Program-made: the position numbers and the translations under genes
Assembly: GCF_003428335.1 (NCBI RefSeq)
Contig: NZ_CP031704.1
Span: forward strand, 2,170,001-2,234,000
Source of the DNA: Solimonas sp. K1W22B-7
GTDB taxonomy: Bacteria > Pseudomonadota > Gammaproteobacteria > Nevskiales > Nevskiaceae
DNA: 64,000 nt
Direction of reading: 5' to 3'
The notes under the pieces: generated by a model
What the model saw: only the letters and a program-made list of their open reading frames with translations
Databases searched by the model: none
What the model was told of the DNA's origin: nothing
Shown: in pieces, positions 9,481 through 47,060 of the stretch
Numbering within the stretch: position 1 is the stretch's first letter
How the letters are laid out: the number at the start of each line of letters is the position of its first letter

Positions 9481-9521
9481 GCAGGCACTGAAGGAAACAC
9501 GGCGCGCTGCCGGGCTCTCCC

Positions 9522-10730
9522 ATGGATATCTGGCAGGAACTCGGCTGCGAGCCGACCCGCGATCCCCGCGAGATCAAGCGCGCCTACGCGGCACTGCTGC
9601 GCCAGGTGCGCCCGGAGGACGATCCGGAACGCTTCCAGCGGCTGCGCAGCGCCTACGAACTGGCGATCGAATGGACCCGGGACGAGGAGCCGCCGCTCCC
9701 GCCGCTGCAAGCCCCCCGCTTACCGCAGGTCGAGCCGGATACGGGCGTGCCGCCGGGTTTGGCAAAGGAGCTCTGTGAGGGCCTGCTGGCCCAGCCGCGC
9801 GAGCGACGCGTCGGCTGGCTTGGCCAGCAACTGCACCGCGAGGACCGTGTCGCGCTGGAGTTCCAGGGAGATCTGCAGCGGGAGATGCTGGGCCTGCTGC
9901 TCAAGGAGTTCGATCGCTACCACGGCCTTGCCGCGACCTGCGAGACCTACTTCAACTGGTCCGAGCCCTGGCGCGACCTGGGCGATGCCGAGGCATGGCT
10001 GACGGAGCTGAGGTCGCGCGTCTGGGCTCGTGCATGGCGCGAGAAGCTCGCGGCGAAACGGGAGCGCGAGTCGCGGCGGCAGAGCCGGGCGCTGGATCTG
10101 CTCGGCGCTCCGGTCGACGAGAGGCGGTTCCGCAGGTTCGCGTGGTGGGAGAACAACCGCGAGGCGATGAGCCAGCTGCTCCATACCCTGGAGTCCCTCA
10201 AGTCCCAGGTCCTGCGCTTCGAGACGCGCCCCGAAGCGGTGAGCTGGTGGATGCGCTACCTGCTGGAGCGCCCGCTGAGCGTCGAGTCCCTCATCAAGCT
10301 GATCGGACTGTGCCTGGGCCTTGCGCCGCTGTTCACGCTCGCAATCCAGCAATGGGCCCGCGAGTCGGCGGGTCCCAGGATTCTGCATCACCCCTTGCCG
10401 GCCGCTGTGCTGGCCCTGCTGCTGGCTGCGCTGCCGCTGCTGGTCGCACAGGGCAGCGCGATATGGCGACGCCAGTCGCTGCGGCCCGGAAGCCTGGCGA
10501 CCAGGCTGCAGTCCTGGCAACAGGAGCCGGGGCCGCGAAACCTGTGGTCGATTGCCATGGTGTCGCTCTCCACGCTGACCGTGGGCGCAGGGTTCAGCCC
10601 CTGGCTGGGGCTCTTCGCCGTTCCGGCTTTCCTGCTGCTGAGTCCGCGCATGCCGCGGGACCCCCTGGCCTGGATGTCGCTGGTTTTCCTGGTGATGGGG
10701 ATGATGGGCCTGAAGTCGCAACTGCAGTAG
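9522..10730 (+). CDS. J-like domain protein with C-terminal membrane helices
   Basis: 402 residues. Residues 1-50 (MDIWQELGCEPTRDPREIKR, then AYAALLRQVRPEDDPERFQR and LRSAYELA) have the helix pattern of a DnaJ J domain, but the DnaK-stimulating HPD tripeptide is replaced by RPED, so it is unlikely to act as a normal Hsp40. A central charged, helical region (about 85-240) contains several Arg-rich stretches. The C-terminus has about four membrane helices (roughly 258-280, 292-315, 345-372, 383-398). Cytosolic J-like head plus membrane tail suggests a scaffold or assembly factor. It ends facing a minus-strand lipoprotein gene, with a long hairpin between them. Confidence 0.75.
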   Translation: MDIWQELGCEPTRDPREIKRAYAALLRQVRPEDDPERFQRLRSAYELAIEWTRDEEPPLPPLQAPRLPQVEPDTGVPPGLAKELCEGLLAQPRERRVGWLGQQLHREDRVALEFQGDLQREMLGLLLKEFDRYHGLAATCETYFNWSEPWRDLGDAEAWLTELRSRVWARAWREKLAAKRERESRRQSRALDLLGAPVDERRFRRFAWWENNREAMSQLLHTLESLKSQVLRFETRPEAVSWWMRYLLERPLSVESLIKLIGLCLGLAPLFTLAIQQWARESAGPRILHHPLPAAVLALLLAALPLLVAQGSAIWRRQSLRPGSLATRLQSWQQEPGPRNLWSIAMVSLSTLTVGAGFSPWLGLFAVPAFLLLSPRMPRDPLAWMSLVFLVMGMMGLKSQLQ

Positions 10731-10770
10731 GCCGGTATCCGCATGCCGGGTGCTGGCGGCGTCCTCCGCT

Positions 10771-10833
10771 CGCCAGGGCCTGTTAACACTACAGCAGTCA
10801 CAGCGACTGCCGTAGTGTTAACAGGCCCTGGCG
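10771..10833. terminator. Long palindromic hairpin between convergent genes
   Basis: Two 29-base arms (10771-10799 and 10805-10833) with one mismatch and a 5-base loop. The arms begin CGCCAGGGCC and contain the AT-rich core TGTTAACACTAC. It abuts the stop codon of the minus-strand lipoprotein gene (10834) and follows the plus-strand J-like gene, so it probably works as a bidirectional terminator. Its length and symmetry also fit a mobile palindromic unit. Confidence 0.7.
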
Positions 10834-11532
10834 CTACGGTGTCGGGCCGGCAGGTTCGGCCGGCGGTGTCGGCGCTGGCGTGCTGCTGCTGGGCTCTTCA
10901 ATCAGCGACTGCTCGACGGCCTGCACCGCGGCAACCGCCTCTGCGTCCTGTGTCGCGGCTGCAGCCGGGGCGGGTTCGGTTGGCGGCATCTCTACTGCGA
11001 CAGGCGCAGGGACGGGTGCAGGCTCGACCACCGGCGGCGCAGGGGCGGGCGGCGGTGCGACCGCGACTACCGGCTTGGCGACCGGCGCCGGCGGATGGCT
11101 GCCGGACATCAGCTTCGCCGGCTTGCCGACGCGCAGCAACTCCGAGTAGTTCACGTTGTGCTGCGGGTCGTAGCAGACGCGGATGCGAACCTTGTCGTTG
11201 CCCACCGAGGCCTCGACCGGGTTGGTCACCATTTCACTGATGCCCAGCGTGCCGATCGCCAGCAGCGAGTACCCCGCTGCGCGCAGGTACTTGAGGCCGC
11301 CGGAGCCTTCCTCGAAGGAGAAGATGTCGCAGTTGCCCGCTGCGGCCGATGCCATGGGTTGCCCCAGTTCGGCGCGGACCAGGTCGCGATCCGTCCCGAC
11401 CTCCAGGACGTCGTAGTCCTTTTCGGCCGGCTTGTTCAATGCGCGTCCCGCGGCGCAACCGGCAAGACTCAAGACACAAGCTGACAGCACCAGCGCCCTG
11501 AACAGGCGCCGGCCGATATTTTTGCTATCCAT
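10834..11532 (-). CDS. Proline/alanine-rich lipoprotein
   Basis: 232 residues from ATG 11532 (MDSKNIGRR), chosen because it gives a textbook lipoprotein signal: ALVLSACVLSLAGC. The mature part has a conserved-looking domain of about 120 residues (VGTDRDLVRAELGQPM, FSFEEGSGG, CYDPQHNVNYSELLRVGKPA). Its VGTDRDLVRAELGQP stretch resembles the start of SmpA/OmlA-type small envelope domains, which test lipid or protein contacts, but this is weak. The last ~90 residues are a low-complexity Pro/Ala/Glu linker of the kind that spans the periplasm or reaches into peptidoglycan. Confidence 0.75.
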   Translation of the reverse strand: MDSKNIGRRLFRALVLSACVLSLAGCAAGRALNKPAEKDYDVLEVGTDRDLVRAELGQPMASAAAGNCDIFSFEEGSGGLKYLRAAGYSLLAIGTLGISEMVTNPVEASVGNDKVRIRVCYDPQHNVNYSELLRVGKPAKLMSGSHPPAPVAKPVVAVAPPPAPAPPVVEPAPVPAPVAVEMPPTEPAPAAAATQDAEAVAAVQAVEQSLIEEPSSSTPAPTPPAEPAGPTP

Positions 11533-11637
11533 GGAATGTTCCCCCGAACATTGATGCGAGCAGGATACCCGATGGGAAACGGGAGACACTGCGGGCTCGG
11601 TGCGCAGGAGGGGGATTGACGCGGCCACGCTGCGTTG

Positions 11638-11690
11638 GGGTCTGCCACCCATTCCCCGATCGCTGCGACCGGGGAATGGGTGGCAGACCC
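11638..11690. repeat. Perfect-stem palindrome upstream of the methyltransferase gene
   Basis: Arms 11638-11662 and 11666-11690 pair over 25 bases with a single mismatch (outer 20 perfect) around a 3-base loop. The outer arm begins GGGTCTGCCACCC. It lies 51 bases before the TTG start of the methyltransferase gene and about 105 bases upstream of the divergent lipoprotein gene. It could be a mobile palindrome or a leader hairpin. Confidence 0.75.
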
Positions 11691-11741
11691 TAAGTCCGGA
11701 CGTTCCGGTAATCTGCAGGTGAAGCAAAAACGGAGCGCCGC

Positions 11742-12590
11742 TTGCAGCCTGATCCGCACGCACAGGAAGGAGTCTGGACCCGCCATTCGGGCCAGTGGCA
11801 GCGCATCGGTTCGCCGCTGAAGCCACTGCCCGAGGATGCACGGCGCGCCCTGTCGCTGGTGCAGCCGGCGCTGGCGGAGGCGGGCTTGCCATCGAAGGTG
11901 CTGGTGCTGGGCGTTACCCAGGAACTGGTGCAGCTGCCCTGGCCGGCCGGGGGCCGCCTGCTGGCGGTGGATCACAGCGGCCCGATGATCGCCTCGCTGT
12001 GGCGCCCCAGTACGGCAGTGTCTTCGGAAGTCCTGCGGGCGCGCTGGCAGGAGCTGCCGCTGCCAGATGCTTCGGTCACCGCGATCGTCGGCGACGGCTC
12101 CCTCAACGCCCTGCCGTCCCTGGCCGGGATACCGGCGGTGCTGTCCGAGGCGCGGCGCGTGCTGCGTCCGGCGGGCCTGATGGCGCTGCGCTGCTTCATC
12201 CGGCCCGACCGGCAGGAGAGCCTGGAGGCGGTGCGCGACGCGGCCCTGCAGGGGCAGGTGGGCAGCTTCCACGCGCTGAAATGGCGGGTGGCGATGGCCT
12301 TGCCCGCCGATGCCGGTTTCAGCGTTGCGGTGACCGATATCCTCGCAAGCTTCGAGCAACTGTTTCCGGATCGCGACGAGCTGGCGCGCCGCGCGGGCTG
12401 GCCGCGCGAGAGCACCGACACCATCGAGGCCTACCGCGGTACCGATACCCGTTACTGCTTCCCGACACTCGCCGCGCTGGCCGAGGTTGCCGCGCCGCAT
12501 TTCAGCATCGTCGAACAGCGTTGCGGCGAGTACGAACTGGCCGAGCGCTGTCCCACGCTCTGCTTCCGGCCGCTGCCAGAGTCCGCATGA
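11742..12590 (+). CDS. Class I SAM-dependent methyltransferase-like protein
   Basis: 282 residues from TTG 11742, preceded by CGGAG at 6 bases; no ATG gives a better N-terminus. Rossmann methyltransferase order: motif I-like strand KVLVLGVTQELVQLP, acidic loop LLAVDHSGPMI, a motif IV-like ASVTAIVGDGSLNALPS, then the motif VI-like EARRVLRPAGLMALRCF. The glycine-rich loop is atypical (LGVTQEL), so cofactor binding needs testing. It overlaps the next gene by 4 bases (ATGA), so it is translationally coupled to a cyanophycin-synthetase-like protein. A role modifying that product or its precursor is inferred. Confidence 0.8.
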   Translation: MQPDPHAQEGVWTRHSGQWQRIGSPLKPLPEDARRALSLVQPALAEAGLPSKVLVLGVTQELVQLPWPAGGRLLAVDHSGPMIASLWRPSTAVSSEVLRARWQELPLPDASVTAIVGDGSLNALPSLAGIPAVLSEARRVLRPAGLMALRCFIRPDRQESLEAVRDAALQGQVGSFHALKWRVAMALPADAGFSVAVTDILASFEQLFPDRDELARRAGWPRESTDTIEAYRGTDTRYCFPTLAALAEVAAPHFSIVEQRCGEYELAERCPTLCFRPLPESA

Positions 12591-14509
12591 GCCTGCGCCT
12601 GGCCGACGCGCCCTGCGCGATGCCGGGCTACGCCTATGGATTGCGGCATCCCGGCCTGCTGGTCAGCGTCTCGATGCCTGCCGGGGAGTCGCTGCAGGCG
12701 CTGCGCTCCCTGCCGGCCTGGCTGGTCCAGATCCTGGGTCTGCCGGTCGAACAAGCCGGCGGCTTGCTCGAAGAAAACCTGGAGGCAGGGGACATCCTGC
12801 TGCAGGGCATGCTGGCACTGCAGCGTGCTGCGGGCCTGCCGCTGCAGGAACCGGGGCGGGTGGTCGCTGCCCGTGTGGGCCACTGGCTGGCGGTGCTGCC
12901 GCTGCTGCAGCGGGGCGAGGCCGCCGCGGCGGCGGCTTTCGGCTGGCTGCTGCGGGCCTGCAACGCAACGCTGGCCGGCGAGGACCTTCAGCCGCTGCAG
13001 GCGGAACTGCCGGGCGTGCTGGGCGCCCTGGCCGCGTTGTTGTCGTCCGGCTCCAATGCCGCGCATTTCATGCGCACGGCCCAGGCGCTGGGCATTCCCT
13101 GTCGCCAGCGTGCGGGTGGCGTGATCCAGTTCGGCGAAGGCGCGCGTGCGCGCTGGCTGGTCAGCTCCTTCACCGACCAGACCTCGCATATCGCCGCGCG
13201 GCTGGCGCGGCACAAGGCGCAGGCTTCGGCGATGCTGGCCGAGGCCGGCATCCCGGTGCCGCGCCAGGTCACAGTGGCCACGGCGGAGGCGGCTGTGCAG
13301 GCTGCCGCGGCTTTGGGCTACCCGGTGGTGATCAAGCCCGAGGACACCGAGGGCGGCATCGCCGTCGCTCCCGGCCTGGGCACGCCGGAGGAGGTGCGTG
13401 CCGCCTTCGAGACGGCCTCGCGCTACAGCCGCAGCATCCTGCTGGAAAGCCATGTCGAAGGCCGCGACTATCGCCTCAACGTGTTCCAGGGTGAGCTGGT
13501 CTGGGCCATCGAGCGTCAGCCCGCCAGCGTCACCGGCGACGGCCGCGCACCGGTGCGGGAGCTGCTGCAGCGGCTCAATGCCGATCCGCGGCGTGGAGCG
13601 GGCAAGGGAGCCAGGCTGCGTCGCGTGGAACTGGACGAGGAGGCCTTGTCCTTGCTGCGCAAGGCCGGCCTGGGGCCCGACGACGTGCCGGCCGAAGGGC
13701 GCGTCCTGCGCCTGCGGCGGGTCGCCAACATCGGTGCGGGCGCGGTCCCCGTGCCGGTGTTCGACCAGGTGCATCCGGACAACGCCCGGCTGGCGATACG
13801 CGCCGCCGAGGCCCTGGGGCTGGACCTGGCCGGCGTCGACCTGCTGATCCCCGACATCGCGCGCTCCTGGCACGAGGGCGGTGCCGCGGTCTGCGAGGTC
13901 AATGGCCAGCCGACCCTGGGGCAGATCACCAGCGCCCATCTCTATCCGCTGATCCTCGGTCGCCTGGTGCGGGGCAATGGCCGCATCCCGACCGCGCTGG
14001 TGATCGGCGCCGGTGAGGGCAGCGGCCTGCTGGCCGGTATCGCGGCGCGGCTGGGTGCTGCGGGGTTGCGCGTCGGTTGCGTGGGCCGGCAGGGCGTCAC
14101 GGCAGCTGGGGAGCGCATCGCCGCCGGGCCCGTCGGCAGCTTCGCCGGCGGCCGCATGCTGGTGGCCCACCGCGGCGTCGATGCCGCCCTGGTCGCGGTG
14201 GACGATGCCGGCCTGCTCGACACGGGGCTGCCGTTTGCGCGCTACGACCTGCTGGTGCTGGCGGGCGCGGAGATCGCCGCTGCCGAAGGCCAGGCGGCTA
14301 CCCCGGAAACCCTGCTGCGCGAAGTGCTCAGGCTGGTTCACCCGGCCTGCGACGGCGAGGTGCTGGCCCTCGCAGGCGCCGCACAGGGTTTGCCGCCACC
14401 TGCCAGCGCCAGCTCACCCTGGCTGGCCGAGGTGCCAGATGAAAGCGAGCTGGCGGCGCGGGCCGCCGCAGCCCTGCTGGCGGCGGATCATAGGCCTTCG
14501 GCCAGGTAA
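12587..14509 (+). CDS. Cyanophycin-synthetase-like ATP-grasp protein with P-loop-less Mur-like domain
   Basis: 640 residues. Residues about 1-187: CphA-like N-terminal region. About 188-455: ATP-grasp domain with the CphA-type entry SSFTDQTSHIAARLARHKAQ, the lysine strand GYPVVIKPED, LLESHVEGRDYRLNVFQGEL, RVANIGAG, VFDQVHPDNARLA and metal-ligand strand AAVCEVNGQPTLG. The glycine-rich loop is DTEGGIAV rather than the usual DGNHGRG. About 467-640: aligns in pattern with the CphA Mur-ligase domain (SFAGGRMLVAHRGVDAALVA) but the ATP P-loop GTNGKTT is replaced by GAGEGSG. A full CphA is about 870 residues, so this is shorter and probably has one active ligase site. Coupled to the upstream methyltransferase. 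Substrate unknown. Confidence 0.8.
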   Translation: MSLRLADAPCAMPGYAYGLRHPGLLVSVSMPAGESLQALRSLPAWLVQILGLPVEQAGGLLEENLEAGDILLQGMLALQRAAGLPLQEPGRVVAARVGHWLAVLPLLQRGEAAAAAAFGWLLRACNATLAGEDLQPLQAELPGVLGALAALLSSGSNAAHFMRTAQALGIPCRQRAGGVIQFGEGARARWLVSSFTDQTSHIAARLARHKAQASAMLAEAGIPVPRQVTVATAEAAVQAAAALGYPVVIKPEDTEGGIAVAPGLGTPEEVRAAFETASRYSRSILLESHVEGRDYRLNVFQGELVWAIERQPASVTGDGRAPVRELLQRLNADPRRGAGKGARLRRVELDEEALSLLRKAGLGPDDVPAEGRVLRLRRVANIGAGAVPVPVFDQVHPDNARLAIRAAEALGLDLAGVDLLIPDIARSWHEGGAAVCEVNGQPTLGQITSAHLYPLILGRLVRGNGRIPTALVIGAGEGSGLLAGIAARLGAAGLRVGCVGRQGVTAAGERIAAGPVGSFAGGRMLVAHRGVDAALVAVDDAGLLDTGLPFARYDLLVLAGAEIAAAEGQAATPETLLREVLRLVHPACDGEVLALAGAAQGLPPPASASSPWLAEVPDESELAARAAAALLAADHRPSAR

Positions 14510-14537
14510 GCCCCGCTCCCGCTGTGGATCGGAACCC

Positions 14538-15317
14538 TCAACCGCCCGTCAGTAGGCTTCTGACCTGTGCCTGCGTGAAGGCCGTCGTCGAGAGGAGCAG
14601 CTCATCGATACGTCCGGGGAACGAGGGAGTCGTTTCGGGGATGCCGCCCAGGAAAAGGTCGTTGTGCACCGTCTGGACAGGTGCTGAGAGGCTCACACGG
14701 CTGTTCTCTTCGCCATTGAGGTAGATCACCGCAGTGCTGCCGTCATAGACCAGGGCGATGTGGGTCCACTGCTGGTCGGAGAGCAGCGAGGCGCTGCGGA
14801 TGAGGGAGAAGGGCGCGCCGTTGTTGGGGGGATAGAGCAGCAGCTCCAGGCGATTCTCGCGCAGACGCAACTTGAAGCTCTGTACGCCGAAATCGTTGCC
14901 GCCGAGGATCGGGTAGATCGTTTCGGTGGAAGCGGAGACTGGCCGTACCCACATCGCCATGGTGATCTGGTTGTTCGGAAAATCGATGTAGAGGCTGCCA
15001 TTCCCGTTGACATCGCCATGACAGCAGATATCGAACAGCACGTGGGCCGACGGCTGGGCGGTGAAGTCCACGCCCCGGCCAAAGCGGCCTTCGGTTCGCT
15101 GGACGCCGACCAGCGTTCCATGGAAGGCGTTGAAGCGGCTATTGGTGGCCGTGCTGCCGCTCTCTTCATCGAACTTATAGAAGGCGGTTGACCCGAATTC
15201 GCCGTCGTTGTCGCCACCGCCACCTCCGCTGCCGCAGGCGGTGATGCCACAGGCCAGAAGGCCCAGCAGTGCGAATCGGAAGGGCCTGAAGGCGCTGGCG
15301 GCGAAAGATGAGTTCAT
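14538..15317 (-). CDS. Lipoprotein with LamG/concanavalin-like domain
   Basis: 259 residues from ATG 15317 (MNSSFAAS). Lipobox in LLACGITACGSGGGGG; a second Cys makes the exact cleavage site uncertain. The mature part is a single LamG-like jelly roll of about 200 residues: FYKFDEESGSTATN, GRGVDFTAQPS, ITMAMWVRPVS, QWTHIALVYDGSTAVIYLNG, PGRIDELLLS. This is the usual layout of Laminin_G_3 domains, which bind carbohydrates or other ligands at the cell surface. Convergent with the ATP-grasp gene, 28 bases apart, with no clear terminator. In-frame codons upstream of 15317 were excluded because they would bury the signal peptide. Confidence 0.8.
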   Translation of the reverse strand: MNSSFAASAFRPFRFALLGLLACGITACGSGGGGGDNDGEFGSTAFYKFDEESGSTATNSRFNAFHGTLVGVQRTEGRFGRGVDFTAQPSAHVLFDICCHGDVNGNGSLYIDFPNNQITMAMWVRPVSASTETIYPILGGNDFGVQSFKLRLRENRLELLLYPPNNGAPFSLIRSASLLSDQQWTHIALVYDGSTAVIYLNGEENSRVSLSAPVQTVHNDLFLGGIPETTPSFPGRIDELLLSTTAFTQAQVRSLLTGG

Positions 15318-15401
15318 GGAGTGCGTGGTCTCTGGAGTTTCGTGGAACACCAGCAGTCTAACGGGGAGCGAACGGAGCGCGTCACCTGTTCGCGTCACCT
15401 G

Positions 15402-15818
15402 TCAAAGGGGCAAGCCACCCGGTATCGACTCCGCCGCCCGCGCTTCCACCTCGTAGCGGTTGTCCCAGTAGGCGCGTCCGCCGGCGCGCCAGGCGCGCCA
15501 TGAGGCCCAGAGATAGAGGAAGGGAAACAGCAGGCCCCAGCGCTCGTACTGCCGCACATGGGCCAGTTCGTGGGCCAGGGTGCGTTCCAGCGTGGCGGCG
15601 TCGCGCGCCAGCACCAGGTGGCCGATCGTGATCGCTCCGATCCAGCTGCGCGCCAGCAGCCAGCCGGTCAGGCCGCCGCAGGCGAACAGGGCGCCGGTGT
15701 CGCCCAGCCGGCGCCATTGCAAGCTGCCGCCCGCCAGCGCCGGCAGGGCCAGCAGCAGGCCGGCCAGGGACCAGGGCAGGGGCCAGGCCAGCCGCAACAG
15801 GCGGCCGATGGGGCTCAT
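15402..15818 (-). CDS. HELAH-motif membrane protein (putative zinc peptidase-like)
   Basis: 138 residues from ATG 15818, which overlaps the end of the Smr gene by 4 bases. Two N-terminal hydrophobic segments, then HELAHVRQYERWG, an HExxH zinc-binding motif, and a downstream NRYEVEARAAE that could provide the third ligand Glu. Short for a peptidase, so it may be a conserved membrane-associated minimal metalloprotein rather than an active protease. Coupled translation with the Smr protein suggests a co-regulated pair. Confidence 0.7.
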   Translation of the reverse strand: MSPIGRLLRLAWPLPWSLAGLLLALPALAGGSLQWRRLGDTGALFACGGLTGWLLARSWIGAITIGHLVLARDAATLERTLAHELAHVRQYERWGLLFPFLYLWASWRAWRAGGRAYWDNRYEVEARAAESIPGGLPL

Positions 15819-39896: not shown

Positions 39897-42800
39897 TCAT
39901 TCGCAGGCCTCGCCGTCGCGGCTCTTCTCCTCCACTTCGCCGTCGTCGTCGTCGGTTTCGGGTGCCAGCGCCTCGTAGTAGGCGTTGATCTGGTCGACCA
40001 CGGTTGAATAGAAGGTGCTGCGGTCGGTTTCCACGCCGCCGCCCAGCACCAGCACCTGGCCGTTGGTGCGGATCGGCTCGGCGATCAGCACCCTGGAGCT
40101 GGTGGCGAAGACGAAGTTGGTACGGCTGGGCAGCACGTCCACCACCAGCTGGTCGCTGATCTGGATGCCGGCCTCGTAGTCGCTGCCGCCGATCACCACG
40201 GTGTTGTCGGCCAGGCCCGATTGCAGCACCAGCTGGCCCAGGTTGGCGATGCCGCCGCCGACCTGGAACTGCGGATCGCCGGTCTGGTCGGTGCGGCCAT
40301 CGTTCAGCACCGGGCGATCGCCCAGGTTGCGGCTGCCATCGTCGTTGTTGAAGGTGCCCAGGTTGGGGATGACGCGGTTGTCCTCGGTGGCCAGGCGGTC
40401 CTTGACGCTGTCCAGGCCCGCGTCGGTGACATCCACGCTTTCGGTGAAGAAGGGCAGGTTCACCAGCGGATCCAGGTGCACCAGCGTGCCGTCGTTCAGC
40501 GCCAGCGAGCCCAGGCGCATGGTATTGGCCTGGATGTGCAGGTAATCGCCGGCCAGTTCCACCTGCGCCAGTGCCACGGTCGGCGCGCTGAAGTAGGCAT
40601 TGGGCTGCGCCGAAACCGGCAGGGAGCCCGGCAGGCCCTGGCCGATCTGCTGCAGCAGCACGGCGTCGCCGCCGTCCTGCGCCAGTCCGCTGCCGACACG
40701 AACCAGGCCGGCGAGGCGGATCGTCTCGCTGGCCACCACATCCAGGCCGCCGGCGTCGATCAGGGTGCCGGCATCGCTGAGGATGCGCGCGCCCTCGAGC
40801 CGCACGCGGTCGCCGCTGACCACGGTGACGCCGCCGCTGGTCTGGCTGTCGTCGGCCAGCTGCAGCAGGCCGCCGCTCAGGTGAACCTGCTCGCCGTGCA
40901 GGTTCGCGGCCGAAACCGCCAGCGAGTCCGAGGCCATGACCTGCAGGCTGCCTGCGTCGATGTTGGCGCTGATGAAGACGTTCGGCGCCTCCACGCTCAG
41001 CAGGTCCGCGCTCAGCGTCGGCGCGCCGGAGGGCGTCACGATCTCCAGGTACTCGCGTGCCAGCAGGTGGCTTTCGCCGATGGTGGAATCCTGGTTGAAA
41101 TAGATGAAGGCGTTGTCGGCGCTGACGTCGCGGAAGGCGATGCGCCCGTCGTTGGCGTTGAGCAGCAGGCCGCCGCTGAAGCGCGAGCTGCTGTCGGCGT
41201 CGCCGACCGTGAAGCTGCCGACCGAGCCGGTTTCGCGGATGTCGCCGTCGACCCGCAGTTCGCCGTCCATGGCCGAGCCACTGCGCTCCAGCAGCAGGTC
41301 GGCACCGGAAGCGGCGATCGCACTGTCGCCCTGCACGCTGGCGAGCGTGCCGCCGAGCGTGAGGTCGCCATCGACATAGAGGTTGCCCTCGGTCGCGGTG
41401 AGATAGGCATAGCTGCCGTTGAGGAAGGCGCCGTTGGCGGCGTCCACCGACTGCACCGTGCCGGTGATCGACAGCGGGCCGGCGAGACGGACGTTGCCGG
41501 CATCGGCGTCGGCCCAGAAGCCGGAGCCGCTGACGGTCAGGTCGTCGCCCGAGACCACGCTGCCGAGCTGGCCGGCGACCGTGACCGGGCCCTGCAGATT
41601 GACGTCACCCTGCAGGCTCTTGAAGGAAGCGAAGGCGCCATAGGTGAAGAGGCGCTCGCCGGCATTGACCGATTCGAGCTGGCCGCTGACTTCGACACGT
41701 CCGCCGACCAGGGTATCGCCGGCCAGATCCTGGCTGCCGGAGAATACGAAGACATCGGCACCGAAGGCGCCGCTGTCGTTCAGCGCGGTGAAAGCGCCCA
41801 GGGTGCCGCTGACCAGCAGGTCGCCATCGACGCGGAATTCGCCGTCGGGCAGGGCCAGGAGTTCGGCGCCCGAGGCGAAGCCGAGCTGCTCGGCACTGAC
41901 GCTGCCCAGCGTGCCGTCGACGCGGACCGTGCCACCGATCGCCACGGATCCGGCGATGGTCATTAGATTGGCATAGGCGCCATTGACGAAGACGCCGTTG
42001 AATCCGGTGACGTTGCCGGTGCTGCCGTTGATAACCAGGTCGCCGTCGACGCGGAAGTCGCTGTTGACGGTGAACACCTCCAGCTCGGCGGCGCGCGCGG
42101 ACAGGTCGGACTCCGCCGACACGCTGCCGAGGGTGCCCGTAGCGCTGAAATTGCCACCGATGTGCAGATCGCCCTGGCGCGCATCGAGGCCGGCCTGGAC
42201 CCCGTTGACGGTGACGTCGTTGGCGCCGCTCACCGTGCCGGTGGTGCCGGTCAGGGCGACATCGCCGGCGACATCGAGCTGGCCACCGAGGATCTGCACG
42301 TCGAGTTCCGTGGCGAGTGCGGAAACGTTGGAGAAGGCGGTGACGCTGTCGAGCCTGCCGCTGGCGGTGAAGGTCTTGCCGAGCAGGATATCGCCACCCT
42401 GCACGACATCGAACTCGACGCTGATGGCGTTGATGAAGGAATTGCTGAAGGTGCTGACGGCGCCGTTGCGGCCGCTCAGCGAGACGTCGCCGTCGAGCTG
42501 GATGGAGCCGGAGATCGTCGTGATGCTGATTTCGGTCGCGCGCGCGAACAGTCCGTTGCCGGCGGTGGTGGAGTCGAGTCTGCCGTCGGCGGTCAAATTG
42601 CCGTTCACCACGACGTTGCCGGCGCCGCCGGAGTCGAAGTCGATGGCGGTCATGCTGAGGAAGACGCCATTGCTGGAGCTGCTGTCGCCCGCCTGCACTG
42701 TGCCGGTGGTGCCGTGCAGCGTGACGTCGCCGCCGATGCCGATCGCGCCGCTCTGGTGCGTGGTCAGCGAGACGCTGGTGGCCCTGGCTTCCAGGGCTGC

Positions 42801-45800
42801 CGATGGCGCATCCGGGTCGGTGCTGCCGACCGCGGCGAGGCTGCCATCGACGCTGAGCCCGCCGCCGATGAGGATGCCGAAGTTGCTGTTCATCTCCAGG
42901 TAACTGCCGGAGACCTTCGAGACGTCGCCGGTCGTCACGACGCCGGTCGCGCCGTCCAGCGAGACGCTGCCGTCGATGCTGATGAACTGGCCGTTGACCA
43001 CCACGTCCGCGGCATCGGCGCCCACGCCGAAGCCGCTGGTGCTTGCCCCCAGCGAGCCGGTGGCGCTGAGATCGCCATGCAGTACCACGCCATTGCCGCC
43101 CAGCTTCACGACCGCACCGTTGCTGAAGCTGAGGAAGCCCAGCTCGGAGACGCCGGTGTGGCCGGTTGCGACGACATCGCCGTTGACGATCACCAGGCCG
43201 GCGGTCGCATCGGCTATCAGCGCGACGGCCTGGGCATGCGATTCGCCGCCGACGGTGACCGAGCTCAGCGTGCCCAGCGAGCCTTCGGCGCCAAGGCTGC
43301 CGCCCAGCGTGATGTCGCCGCCCAGCGAGGTCAGTCCGAGGGCACTGCCGATGGCGGTGCTCTCCGCGCCGCCGAGGACGAAGCCGGTCTCGCCGGTGAG
43401 GCTGACATCGCCGTCCACCGTGATGGTCTGGCCGACGATCCGCATCTCGGCCGCTTCCGCGAACAGGAAGTCGCCGGCCGTGGTGGAGTCCAGGACGCCG
43501 TTGGCGGTGACGCTGCCATGCAGCACGACATCGCCGTTGACCGCGAACAGTTCGGCGAAGACGCCGTTGCTGTCGCTGTCGCTGCCCACCTCGATCGTGC
43601 CGGTGGTGCCCTCGAGCAGGATGTCGCCGTCGATCGTCAGCGCGTCGCCGCCGGCGGCCAGCGTCATGTTGGCCGCGCGGGCGGAGAGGTCGGCCGGGTT
43701 CGGCAGCAGGGTGCTGCCGTGGACCGACTGCAGCGCCCCGATGACGCTGAGGCCGCCGCCCAGCCCGATGGCGCCGTCAGCCTTCAGGTCCAGCAGCGCG
43801 CCAGACACCTGGGAGGATTCTCCGGCGATCACCGCGCCGGTCCGGCCGTTCACGCTCAGGTCGTGCGCGACGAGGATGTCCGCTGTCGAAGCGATCTCCA
43901 CGCGGGTGGCTTGGGCACGGAGGGAATCCCCGCCCTCGGTGGCGTCGAGCAGGCCGATCACCTCCAGGCCGCCCTGCAGTTCCACTCCGGCGCCTTTCAG
44001 CGCCAGCTGCACGCCATTGCTGGCGCTGGAGTTGCCCAGGAAGGCGCTGCCGTTATGGCCATTGGCGTAGACATCGCCGGTCACGGTCAATGCCCCGCCA
44101 GCCTGGGCGAGCAGCGACACCGCCTGCGCCCCCGAGGAATCGCCACCGGAGACCAGGTCGATACTGCCCACGGCGTCGATGCCGCCCAGGCGGGCGTCGC
44201 CGGTCGCCACCAGTTCCAGGTAGCTGCCGGCGGCAAATGTCGAACCGGCGGCGGCGACGCTGCCAGTCTTGCCCTCCAGCCCGACGATGCCGACGATCTC
44301 GATATTGGCGGCGTGCACGATCAGGTCCGCCGCGCGTGCCACGAGGCTGCCGGCGCTGCCGGTGGAGACCAGCCCGCCGATGACGCCGAGATTGCCGCCG
44401 ATGTGGACATCGCCCAGCGCGCTCAGCCCCAGCGAGGCGCCGGAGGCGAAGACGGAATCGCCGGCGCCGATCGAGCCGGTCTGGCCGTTCAGCAGCAGGT
44501 TGCCGTCGGCGATGATGTTCTGCCCGGAGATGCTGAGTTCCGCTGCCCGGCCGCCGACGCCGCTGCCGGCACCGAGGTCCGCAAGACTGCCGACGGCGCC
44601 GACGTTGCCATGCAGCAGGACGTCGCCGTCGGCCTGCAGGCTGAGGAATACACCGTTGCTGAAGCTGCTGTCGCCGACGCCGACGGTGCCGGCATGACCC
44701 TCTGCATACAGAGTGCCATCGGCCTCGATGGAGCCGCCCCGGGCCCTGACTGCGAAGTCGGCGGCGCGGACCTCGGCACCGGAACTGGCGCCGACCTCGG
44801 TGATCTGTCCGATCACCCGCACATTGCCGCCGAACTGCACGTCGCCGGCGCGCTGGTCCACGAACAGGGAGGCGCCATTGACGGAAAGGCCGTTGTCGGC
44901 GCCTGCGGAGGCCACGCTGCCGGAGACATCGAAGCTGGAGGCAATCGTCAGTTTCCCGCCATCGGCGACGAACTCGGCGTAACCGCCCCTCGCGCCCACC
45001 GATCCGGTGGCGCCGAGTTCGCCGACCTGTCCGCTGATGCTGACCGCGCCGTTGACCTGCGTTTCTCCACCGATCGCGCCAACCTGGAAGAAGCTGCCGA
45101 TGACTTCGCTGCTGTTGTCGATGCCGAAGAGATCGACGTTGCCGGTCATGGTCACCGGCCCGCCGAGCGTGACCTGCACCGTCGCCGGCCGGCCGTCGTC
45201 CAGCGCGCTGCCCAGGGATATCTCGCTGCCGCGGGCGGCGATGCGGGCGGTGCCGTTGACGAGCGCGATGCTGCCGTCCACCGTGATGCTGTCCTCGACG
45301 GTCACCGTGCCGCCATGCGCGCGGACGATCAGCTCCGAGCCGAGCGCCGACCAGTCGACGTTGCCGGTGACCGCGCCGATCGTGCCATTCATTTCGATGG
45401 GGCCGGTGATCGTCACGTCGCCGTCGGCGGCGTCGAATTCGGCATAGCTGCCGCGCACCGCGAAGTTGTCGGCGCCGTCGAAACGGTTGACGCTGCCGGT
45501 CTGCTCCAGGCCGCCGTCAAGCAGGATGTCGCCGCCGCTGGCGATCTCCAGGCGGCTGCCGGCGACTGCGCCGAACTGCGGGTTGCCCACGTCCACCGCG
45601 CCGGCCAGCTTGATGTTGCCCGACACGGTGACGTCACCGCCGGCCTGCAGGTAGACGTTGTTGCGCGCGTCGATCGCGCCGGTGCCGAGGCTGCCGTACT
45701 GCGAGACCAGCGACAGGCTGGCGCCGTCGCTGCCACCGGCGGCGTGCGCGAGGTTTCCCGCCTGCAGGTCGTCGGCCGCCTCCAGGATGATGAATTCCCG

Positions 45801-47060
45801 GCTCAGGATGCTGCCGACCGTGAGCGTGCCGCTGTCGCGCCCGGTATAGGCCTGTACGCTGCCGTCGAGCAGCAGGCTGTCGCCCGCGCCGGCGAAACTG
45901 ACCGAGCCGCTGCTGCCGCGATCGTAGGTATTGCCGTCGTGGGTGCTGCCGATCCCGAGCAGCAGGAAGCCGCCGCTACCCGGGGTGGCGCTGGACCGGC
46001 CGTCGATCGCGCCGTCGGCGAGGGTTTCCACCGTGACCGAGTCGCGGGCCACGAGGCCGACGTTGCTGCCCTGCTGCAGCAGGTTCTCCAGCTGCCCTTC
46101 GCAGAGTGCGGCGCTGCAGCCGGCGGCGGGGCCGCCGCCGACGGTCAGCTGGTCGGCTTCGACGACGATCTCGCCGCCGGCTTGTCCGGCGGCGCCTGCC
46201 GTCCCGATGTCGCCGACCTGGCCGATGTCGCCGCCCTGCGCGATCAGGGTGATCTCGCCCGCACTGTCGTCGATCGAGGTGGCGCGGATGCGGCCACTGT
46301 TGTTCAGCGCCTGGCCGGCCATCAGCCGGGCGACGTGCGCGCTCATCACCACGCGGCCGCCTTCGGCCATCAGGTCGCCGCTGTTGAATGCACCGGTGCT
46401 ATCGCCGATCGCGTCGGCATCGATCGCGAAGCCGATCAGGCCTTCGGCGTCCAGCGACAGCGTCATCGCCGAGCCGGAGAGCAGGGCGACCTTGCCGAGC
46501 CTGGCCTGGACCAGGTTCTCGTTGCTCACATGACCGCTGGCGAGCACCACGAAGCCGCCGTCGGCGCTGACGATCTCGCCCCGGTTGACGACGCTGCCGG
46601 CGGCAGCGGGATCACCGGCGAAGACCATGTTGCCGTCGAGGAAGTCCTGGTCGGCGATGTCGAAGGTGGTGGCCACCAGCGAGCCGGTATCGACGCGCGA
46701 CCCTGCGCCGAACATCACGCCCTGCGGGTTGACGATGAAGACGCGACCGTTGGCCGAGAGGTTGCCGAGGATTTCGGAGGGCAGGCCGCCGACCACGCGG
46801 TTGAGCACCGCCGCCGATGCGCTGGGCTGCACGAACTGCACGAACTCGCCGCTGCCGATCGAGAAGTCCTGCCAGTTGATGATCGCCGAGGAAGAGGTCT
46901 GGTCGATGCGGACCGTGTTGGCGGAGGGGTTGGCGATCGTCGCGGCGCCGCCCACCACCACCCCGCCCATGGGATTGGCCCAGGCGAAGCCCGGCGCAAA
47001 CGCCGCCATGGCCAAGGCACTGATACGGCGTCTGCGAAACCTGTGCGGTTTGCTGTTCAT
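39897..47060 (-). CDS. Giant two-partner-secretion exoprotein (FHA/HMW-like TpsA)
   Basis: 2387 residues. Signal region at 1-28 (SALAMAAFAPGFAWANP) with a basic MNSKPHRFRRRR start. TPS/haemagglutination domain at about 29-300: WQDFSIGSGEFVQFVQPS, GNLSANGRVFIVNPQGVMFG, GGFVVLASGHVSN. A Cys pair CSAALC sits near 314. About 480-1780: long array of alternating ~35-40-residue repeats of the form VDGDVSLSGxTGxV and GDIxLGGxLxxxGxLxS, expected to form a right-handed beta-helix. The C-terminus turns acidic (ETDDDDGEVEEKSRDGEACE). Likely secreted surface fibre or adhesin, but no TpsB (POTRA-FhaC barrel) gene lies in the window. The shadow frames on the other strand are artefacts of GC-rich repeats. 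Confidence 0.9.
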   Translation of the reverse strand: MNSKPHRFRRRRISALAMAAFAPGFAWANPMGGVVVGGAATIANPSANTVRIDQTSSSAIINWQDFSIGSGEFVQFVQPSASAAVLNRVVGGLPSEILGNLSANGRVFIVNPQGVMFGAGSRVDTGSLVATTFDIADQDFLDGNMVFAGDPAAAGSVVNRGEIVSADGGFVVLASGHVSNENLVQARLGKVALLSGSAMTLSLDAEGLIGFAIDADAIGDSTGAFNSGDLMAEGGRVVMSAHVARLMAGQALNNSGRIRATSIDDSAGEITLIAQGGDIGQVGDIGTAGAAGQAGGEIVVEADQLTVGGGPAAGCSAALCEGQLENLLQQGSNVGLVARDSVTVETLADGAIDGRSSATPGSGGFLLLGIGSTHDGNTYDRGSSGSVSFAGAGDSLLLDGSVQAYTGRDSGTLTVGSILSREFIILEAADDLQAGNLAHAAGGSDGASLSLVSQYGSLGTGAIDARNNVYLQAGGDVTVSGNIKLAGAVDVGNPQFGAVAGSRLEIASGGDILLDGGLEQTGSVNRFDGADNFAVRGSYAEFDAADGDVTITGPIEMNGTIGAVTGNVDWSALGSELIVRAHGGTVTVEDSITVDGSIALVNGTARIAARGSEISLGSALDDGRPATVQVTLGGPVTMTGNVDLFGIDNSSEVIGSFFQVGAIGGETQVNGAVSISGQVGELGATGSVGARGGYAEFVADGGKLTIASSFDVSGSVASAGADNGLSVNGASLFVDQRAGDVQFGGNVRVIGQITEVGASSGAEVRAADFAVRARGGSIEADGTLYAEGHAGTVGVGDSSFSNGVFLSLQADGDVLLHGNVGAVGSLADLGAGSGVGGRAAELSISGQNIIADGNLLLNGQTGSIGAGDSVFASGASLGLSALGDVHIGGNLGVIGGLVSTGSAGSLVARAADLIVHAANIEIVGIVGLEGKTGSVAAAGSTFAAGSYLELVATGDARLGGIDAVGSIDLVSGGDSSGAQAVSLLAQAGGALTVTGDVYANGHNGSAFLGNSSASNGVQLALKGAGVELQGGLEVIGLLDATEGGDSLRAQATRVEIASTADILVAHDLSVNGRTGAVIAGESSQVSGALLDLKADGAIGLGGGLSVIGALQSVHGSTLLPNPADLSARAANMTLAAGGDALTIDGDILLEGTTGTIEVGSDSDSNGVFAELFAVNGDVVLHGSVTANGVLDSTTAGDFLFAEAAEMRIVGQTITVDGDVSLTGETGFVLGGAESTAIGSALGLTSLGGDITLGGSLGAEGSLGTLSSVTVGGESHAQAVALIADATAGLVIVNGDVVATGHTGVSELGFLSFSNGAVVKLGGNGVVLHGDLSATGSLGASTSGFGVGADAADVVVNGQFISIDGSVSLDGATGVVTTGDVSKVSGSYLEMNSNFGILIGGGLSVDGSLAAVGSTDPDAPSAALEARATSVSLTTHQSGAIGIGGDVTLHGTTGTVQAGDSSSSNGVFLSMTAIDFDSGGAGNVVVNGNLTADGRLDSTTAGNGLFARATEISITTISGSIQLDGDVSLSGRNGAVSTFSNSFINAISVEFDVVQGGDILLGKTFTASGRLDSVTAFSNVSALATELDVQILGGQLDVAGDVALTGTTGTVSGANDVTVNGVQAGLDARQGDLHIGGNFSATGTLGSVSAESDLSARAAELEVFTVNSDFRVDGDLVINGSTGNVTGFNGVFVNGAYANLMTIAGSVAIGGTVRVDGTLGSVSAEQLGFASGAELLALPDGEFRVDGDLLVSGTLGAFTALNDSGAFGADVFVFSGSQDLAGDTLVGGRVEVSGQLESVNAGERLFTYGAFASFKSLQGDVNLQGPVTVAGQLGSVVSGDDLTVSGSGFWADADAGNVRLAGPLSITGTVQSVDAANGAFLNGSYAYLTATEGNLYVDGDLTLGGTLASVQGDSAIAASGADLLLERSGSAMDGELRVDGDIRETGSVGSFTVGDADSSSRFSGGLLLNANDGRIAFRDVSADNAFIYFNQDSTIGESHLLAREYLEIVTPSGAPTLSADLLSVEAPNVFISANIDAGSLQVMASDSLAVSAANLHGEQVHLSGGLLQLADDSQTSGGVTVVSGDRVRLEGARILSDAGTLIDAGGLDVVASETIRLAGLVRVGSGLAQDGGDAVLLQQIGQGLPGSLPVSAQPNAYFSAPTVALAQVELAGDYLHIQANTMRLGSLALNDGTLVHLDPLVNLPFFTESVDVTDAGLDSVKDRLATEDNRVIPNLGTFNNDDGSRNLGDRPVLNDGRTDQTGDPQFQVGGGIANLGQLVLQSGLADNTVVIGGSDYEAGIQISDQLVVDVLPSRTNFVFATSSRVLIAEPIRTNGQVLVLGGGVETDRSTFYSTVVDQINAYYEALAPETDDDDGEVEEKSRDGEACE

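Follow-up and report, generated by a model that had tools for sequence, protein, structure and literature searches.

A methyltransferase gene overlapping a gene for a CphA-like ligase with one remaining active site in Solimonas

In Solimonas sp. K1W22B-7, a class I methyltransferase gene overlaps the gene for a shortened relative of cyanophycin synthetase. On balance, we favour a small mobile two-gene module in which an ATP-grasp enzyme forms an amide bond and a methyltransferase modifies the substrate or the product. Briefly, the ligase would be a descendant of cyanophycin synthetase without the arginine-adding Mur site, working via its ATP-grasp site alone. It would activate a carboxylate as an acyl phosphate (Arg296 and Arg310 are kept). 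The acyl phosphate would then be joined to an amine, though not to aspartate as in cyanophycin. Acid, amine or product would be the target of the coupled methyltransferase, and the output would be a methylated amide or peptide-like small molecule. We infer these catalytic steps from residues and relatives. The catalytic activity, the substrates and the small-molecule nature of the product are predictions of the same kind.

The window is the whole stretch of DNA that was analysed (64,000 nucleotides). Features are listed in Table 1; the methyltransferase is P0001 and the ligase P0002. A preliminary description of this DNA had a 4-base ATGA overlap joining a class I methyltransferase to a CphA-like gene. 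Both open reading frames were confirmed and the coordinates were right. The overlap suggests translational coupling. The pair lies in an islet flanked by ispF on one side and by a conserved gene (at 15430) on the other. In congeners G002 and G003, these conserved flanks almost adjoin and the whole islet of approximately 6 kb is missing. In congener G001, a LamG-like gene stands alone at this position. A search of the three congeners for a ligase homologue gave no match. Hence, the pair is probably mobile or often lost.

Table 1. Positions of the gene pair, its domains and its motifs in the window.
Feature	Position	Strand	Details
Class I SAM-methyltransferase-like gene	11742..12590	+	TTG start; 282 aa; GGAG ~8 nt upstream
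CphA-like single-site ligase gene (P0002)	12587..14509	+	ATG start; 640 aa
ATGA overlap, methyltransferase stop / ligase start	12587..12590	+	Read from sequence
N domain, aa 1-153	12587..13045	+	HxxEH absent
G (ATP-grasp) domain, aa 154-465	13046..13981	+	Residue alignment to TeCphA1
Degenerate Mur-core domain, aa 466-640, without Mur lid	13982..14506	+	Sequence, fold match, domain identities
G-loop DTEGG, Gly at CphA1 His267 position	13343..13357	+	Residue table
Family signature EVNGQPTLG where CphA1 reads EVNAGPGFR	13895..13921	+	Residue table
Mur P-loop relic GAGEGSG	14006..14026	+	Alignment
~6-kb islet with methyltransferase-ligase pair	9481..15429	.	Flank comparison with congeners

Besides the pair, the islet encodes a protein with weak likeness to J-domains (9522-10730) and has one lipoprotein-like and one LamG-like gene. 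A perfect 20-bp inverted repeat, GGTCTGCCACCCATTCCCCG, with an 11-bp loop (11639-11689) lies in the gap that separates the methyltransferase gene from the divergent lipoprotein gene. It is present as a single copy within the window and could represent either a hairpin with a regulatory role or an element of the REP type. Elsewhere in the window, a surface protein of 2387 aa (39897-47060) resembles filamentous-haemagglutinin-type exoproteins.

P0002 was compared with models of known families. Matches to the cyanophycin synthetase models PRK14016 (E 1.7e-95) and TIGR02068 (E 4e-82) scored 321 and 276.5 bits, far under the cut-offs of 877 and 850, respectively. On these scores, membership of the CphA1 family was rejected. 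Similarity to the sequences of solved CphA1 and CphA2 proteins (E 6e-65) is far past chance. PF08443 also matched (E 7.5e-10), and the Lys/Lys/Asp/Glu/Asn nucleotide and Mg site of the ATP-grasp superfamily is present. Structure prediction against CphA, proposed in the preliminary description, was run for the ligase using AlphaFold2 and 18 related sequences (pLDDT 89, pTM 0.85). The model has the cyanophycin-synthetase fold and matches both CphA1 (7wae_C; Z 30.3, 615 residues) and CphA2 (7ta5; Z 25.8, 568 residues) along its whole length. It comprises an N domain, an ATP-grasp (G) domain and a Mur core (M), with no Mur lid, as in CphA2. Homology to CphA1 (7wae, 7lgm, 7lg5) spans the full 640 residues (Z 25-30) and includes the ATP-grasp Lys/Lys/Arg/Arg/Asp/Glu/Asn set. 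The fold and chemistry of the ligase belong to a known superfamily.

Unlike CphA1, P0002 has no working Mur P-loop, no Mur lid and none of His267, Gly456, Arg458 and HxxEH. Sites were tabulated for 13 family members and three CphA1 controls, using the residue roles assigned to TeCphA1 (PMC9427784). P0002 residues K210, K250, R296 and R310 equate to TeCphA1 K220, K261, R309 and R323; N381, D418, E437 and N439 equate to N394, D431, E450 and N452. In CphA1 numbering, Lys220, Lys261, Arg309, Arg323, Asp431, Glu450 and Asn452 are conserved in 13/13 members. His267 is altered to Gly, Arg or Gln in all 13. Gly456 is replaced, Arg458 is changed to Gly and the Mur P-loop is lost, each in 13/13 aligned members. 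The controls retain His267, Gly456, Arg458 and the Mur P-loop, as well as the ATP-grasp residues; position 215 varies among them.

The substitutions in P0002 itself are His267 to Gly256, Gly456 to Thr443, Arg458 to Gly445 and Glu215 to Arg. In CphA1, Glu215 binds the polymer arginine, Arg458 binds aspartate and Gly456 is the oxyanion residue (PMC9427784). Because the aspartate and polymer-arginine residues are gone, the ligase probably uses substrates other than those of cyanophycin. His267 is important for catalysis in CphA1, and a ligase that lacks it may have low or changed activity. HxxEH, the primer-cleaving motif of many CphA1s, is absent from CphA2 (PMC9262961). It was sought in the N domain of P0002 and is absent there; one CphA1 control also lacks it.

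The preliminary description had read the P-loop as GAGEGSG (GTNGKTT in CphA), found no G-rich DGNHGRG loop and proposed a single remaining ligase site. The alignment bears out the first two points. No intact P-loop is present (GTNGKT is missing), P0002 ends before the lid, and KPEDTEGGIAVA stands in the G-loop in place of the CphA1 sequence KPxDGNHGRGVS. For the third, domain identities are informative. Between P0002 and its nearest homologues, identity is 50-54% in the G domain, 28-36% in the M domain and 22-32% in the N domain. In two CphA1 pairs, G and M identities are about equal (60/64 and 50/47). Thus, unlike in CphA1, the Mur domain has diverged faster than the ATP-grasp domain. This is the pattern that loss of Mur activity, with retention of ATP-grasp activity, would give. 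The proposal of a single site agrees with this faster drift, with the kept ATP-grasp catalytic residues and with the family-wide loss of the P-loop.

A tree was built from the ATP-grasp part only, with two signature stretches excluded. The 13 members form one side of a branch (support 99/95), opposite 31 CphA1-type rows. The signature EVN-x-[QRS]P-x-[LIV]-G, allowing for minor variants, separates the clade from cyanophycin synthetases. It is shared by a 14th member (L124; EVNARPHIG, His267 to Gly), found after the tree. L096, L097, L101 and the second loci of those genes, L073-L075, hold CphA1 or other CphA-like proteins and were excluded from the family. Homologues in the clade are proteobacterial. 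They are also rare: samples of 398 genomes from the phylum, 385 from one other class and 185 from the window's own class each contained a few. A single-sequence search of genome contigs returned two relatives only. The other members came from profile searches of sampled genomes, and hence the true spread of the clade is wider than the members listed. A plasmid search for CphA-like relatives gave only a partial match, to a Mesorhizobium CphA. We found no description of the clade in the open-access literature, which is part of the whole. The member in G641 (L091 8754-11000) has approximately 100 additional N-terminal residues with a TPR-like look.

As the preliminary description had suggested, genomes were searched for the same gene pair. 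A homologous methyltransferase adjoins the ligase in three genomes beyond the window. This makes four genomes in all, from two classes and with two gene orders. In G839 (L124), the methyltransferase is 52% identical and the ligase starts 4 bp past its stop. In G641 (L091), the order is reversed; the ligase precedes the methyltransferase, with an ATGA overlap. Hence, in two of the three the genes overlap or are 4 bp apart. In G187 (L064), the methyltransferase is 30% identical and a gap of ~60 bp separates the genes.

Four syntenic sphingomonad-type loci (L026, L088, L089, L090) have a different methyltransferase directly upstream of the ligase. Its similarity to P0001 is too slight to be useful (E 0.006), and we rejected the idea of one methyltransferase family throughout. 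A CapK-like AMP ligase is encoded in the same stretch of all four loci, with a chorismate-binding enzyme in L088 and another methyltransferase in L026. In L088 (13905-14681 and neighbours), the chorismate-binding enzyme, CapK-like AMP ligase and methyltransferases are accompanied by amidase-like and SDR genes, together with a protein of 259 aa that fits no known family. The group has the look of a biosynthetic cluster not yet described, part of which gives way to an enolase-type protein in L090.

No methyltransferase was found among the adjoining genes in L025, L065 and L092-L095. Sulfotransferases occur near the ligase in L025 and L094, and type I phosphodiesterases in L092 and L093. Other members have a glycosyltransferase or a P450-like gene nearby, the P450 having been identified by reading the sequence rather than by a model match. 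Enzymes of this tailoring type fit a biosynthetic setting. The phosphodiesterase-like genes (L092 7344-8984, L093 11905-13494) lie, in two genomes, near a second CphA-like copy. The preliminary description had envisaged a methyltransferase-linked amide-forming system. Of this, the single ligase site and the methyltransferase coupling stand. Not every member has an adjoining methyltransferase, and three congeners gave no ligase match. The members with no adjoining methyltransferase count against the two-gene module, as does a SAM-binding Gly-rich loop reduced to one Gly in the methyltransferase.

P0001 matches PF08241 above the cut-off (E 2e-7). Its AlphaFold2 model (pLDDT 80) best matches RebM, CysG, CcbJ and CypM in Foldseek. 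Together, these place P0001 in the class I SAM methyltransferases, with a Rossmann-like class I fold. The Foldseek list is dominated by the common fold and points to no substrate. Motif I reads LGVTxEL in place of the canonical glycine-rich loop, and the conserved Asp after strand 2 is present. LGVTxEL or near variants occur in 6/6 aligned homologues, with one invariant Gly. A role in anti-phage defence was rejected; PADLOC gave no relevant match, and mad2 on the methyltransferase (E 0.002) was read as a methyltransferase-domain match only.

Profile matches to the methyltransferase were found in 5/349 genomes of the phylum and 4/347 genomes of one class. In four genomes of one family, a CapK-like AMP ligase gene comes next after the methyltransferase gene; its product shares 41% identity with the CapK-like ligase of the sphingomonad loci. 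In two closely read genomes these genes overlap by 4 bp (TTGA, GTGA), if the near-cognate starts are right. In three genomes of another genus, the methyltransferase gene is divergent from that of a small protein, P0003, with ATP-grasp-like motifs judged by eye (VIVKSN, FDFV...LLDANKTPG). The P0003 genes (L098 8643-9497, L099 2201-3055, L100 10337-11266) are near groES/groEL. P0003 had no Pfam match and no PDB match, and profile comparison with the CphA-like family gave no support. The methyltransferase adjoins a known or possible carboxylate-activating enzyme in 11/11 genomes. A broader reading, which we offer tentatively, is an exchangeable two-part logic. The LGVT-motif methyltransferase would be coupled, often by 4-base overlaps, to whichever carboxylate-activating enzyme the host has: CphA-derived ligase, CapK-like AMP ligase or divergent ATP-grasp-like small protein. 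All such pairs would yield methylated products of a single chemical type (amides or esters), an undescribed metabolite class.

Known enzymes offer partial parallels. Ngg (N-acetylglutaminylglutamine synthetase, TIGR03103) and GshF have ATP-grasp domains related to that of P0002 (1e-42). They make small dipeptides, not polymers, and are a precedent for the proposed use of the ligase. Unlike P0002, they have other accessory domains (acetyltransferase, GshA part) and no Mur core, so the similarity is at the domain level only. In mycosporine synthesis, at the MysB/MysC step, an O-methyltransferase and an ATP-grasp ligase act in turn on one small molecule. Their ATP-grasp and methyltransferase families differ from those of the window pair, and the parallel is in logic only. 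PMC9918943 deals with the mycosporine cluster.

The ligase could instead modify a macromolecule. Acting in a RimK- or graspetide-like manner, it would attach an amino acid to a protein or ribosomally made peptide, or form an amide on it; the methyltransferase would cap or esterify the same target. The relationship between the ATP-grasp domain and RimK is consistent with this. So too are genes for secreted proteins close to some homologues: a large repeat protein adjoins L025, L064 has type I secretion genes nearby, and in L117 an RTX-type repeat protein is next to the methyltransferase. ATP-grasp ligases operate in graspetide clusters, and O-methyltransferases of RiPP pathways have been described alongside such enzymes (PMC8939145, PMC10787088). 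However, the secreted-protein neighbours vary by locus and are missing from most, and no conserved short precursor gene was noticed in an unsystematic reading of the loci. We consider this explanation unlikely.

We give less weight still to the idea that the methyltransferase is a chance neighbour and that each host uses the ligase by itself. In its favour, class I methyltransferase genes are common, and six members were seen with none adjacent. Chance adjacency sits poorly with recurrence of the homologous pair in two classes and two gene orders, with genes that overlap by 4 bp or stand 4 bp apart in three of the four genomes, and with a second, unrelated methyltransferase beside the ligase in a further clade.

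CphA2 is a cyanobacterial beta-Asp-Arg polymerase and, to our knowledge, is not coupled to any methyltransferase. It is the closest known design to P0002, though P0002 lacks key residues. Like CphA2 (7ta5, 8fxh/8fxi), P0002 has an N domain, an ATP-grasp domain and a Mur core without P-loop or lid, a length in the range of ~630-640 aa and one active site. The ATP/Mg residues and catalytic Arg309 are present, and HxxEH is absent from both (PMC9262961). Even so, a polymerase of the CphA2 type is very improbable. In short sequence searches, 7ta5 reads EINAAPGI, retaining Gly456 (Thr443 in P0002), and has an acidic residue at 215. The changes at 456, 458 and 215 remove the aspartate and polymer-arginine contacts (PMC9427784). 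CphA2 is also described from cyanobacteria (PMC10206079). Furthermore, no source of the dipeptide was recognised; no CphA1 was found in the window's own genome, and a model of one cyanophycinase type had no match there. For this reason, cyanophycin metabolism in this genome is unlikely and was rejected as an explanation.

That P0002 is a decaying, functionless CphA1 remnant would fit the loss of two of three CphA1 active sites, the sporadic occurrence and the absence from congeners, but is scarcely credible given an open, stop-free frame, a high-confidence fold and an ATP-grasp domain that is better conserved than the N and M domains throughout a diverse clade.

So far, cyanophycin synthetases (CphA1 and CphA2) have been known for the synthesis of a single polymer. 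If the two-gene module that we favour is real, a separate and widely scattered clade in Proteobacteria would have turned the cyanophycin-synthetase scaffold to other amide chemistry, with a single working site, altered substrate residues and conserved methyltransferase partners. The clade supplies defined gene pairs for assay.
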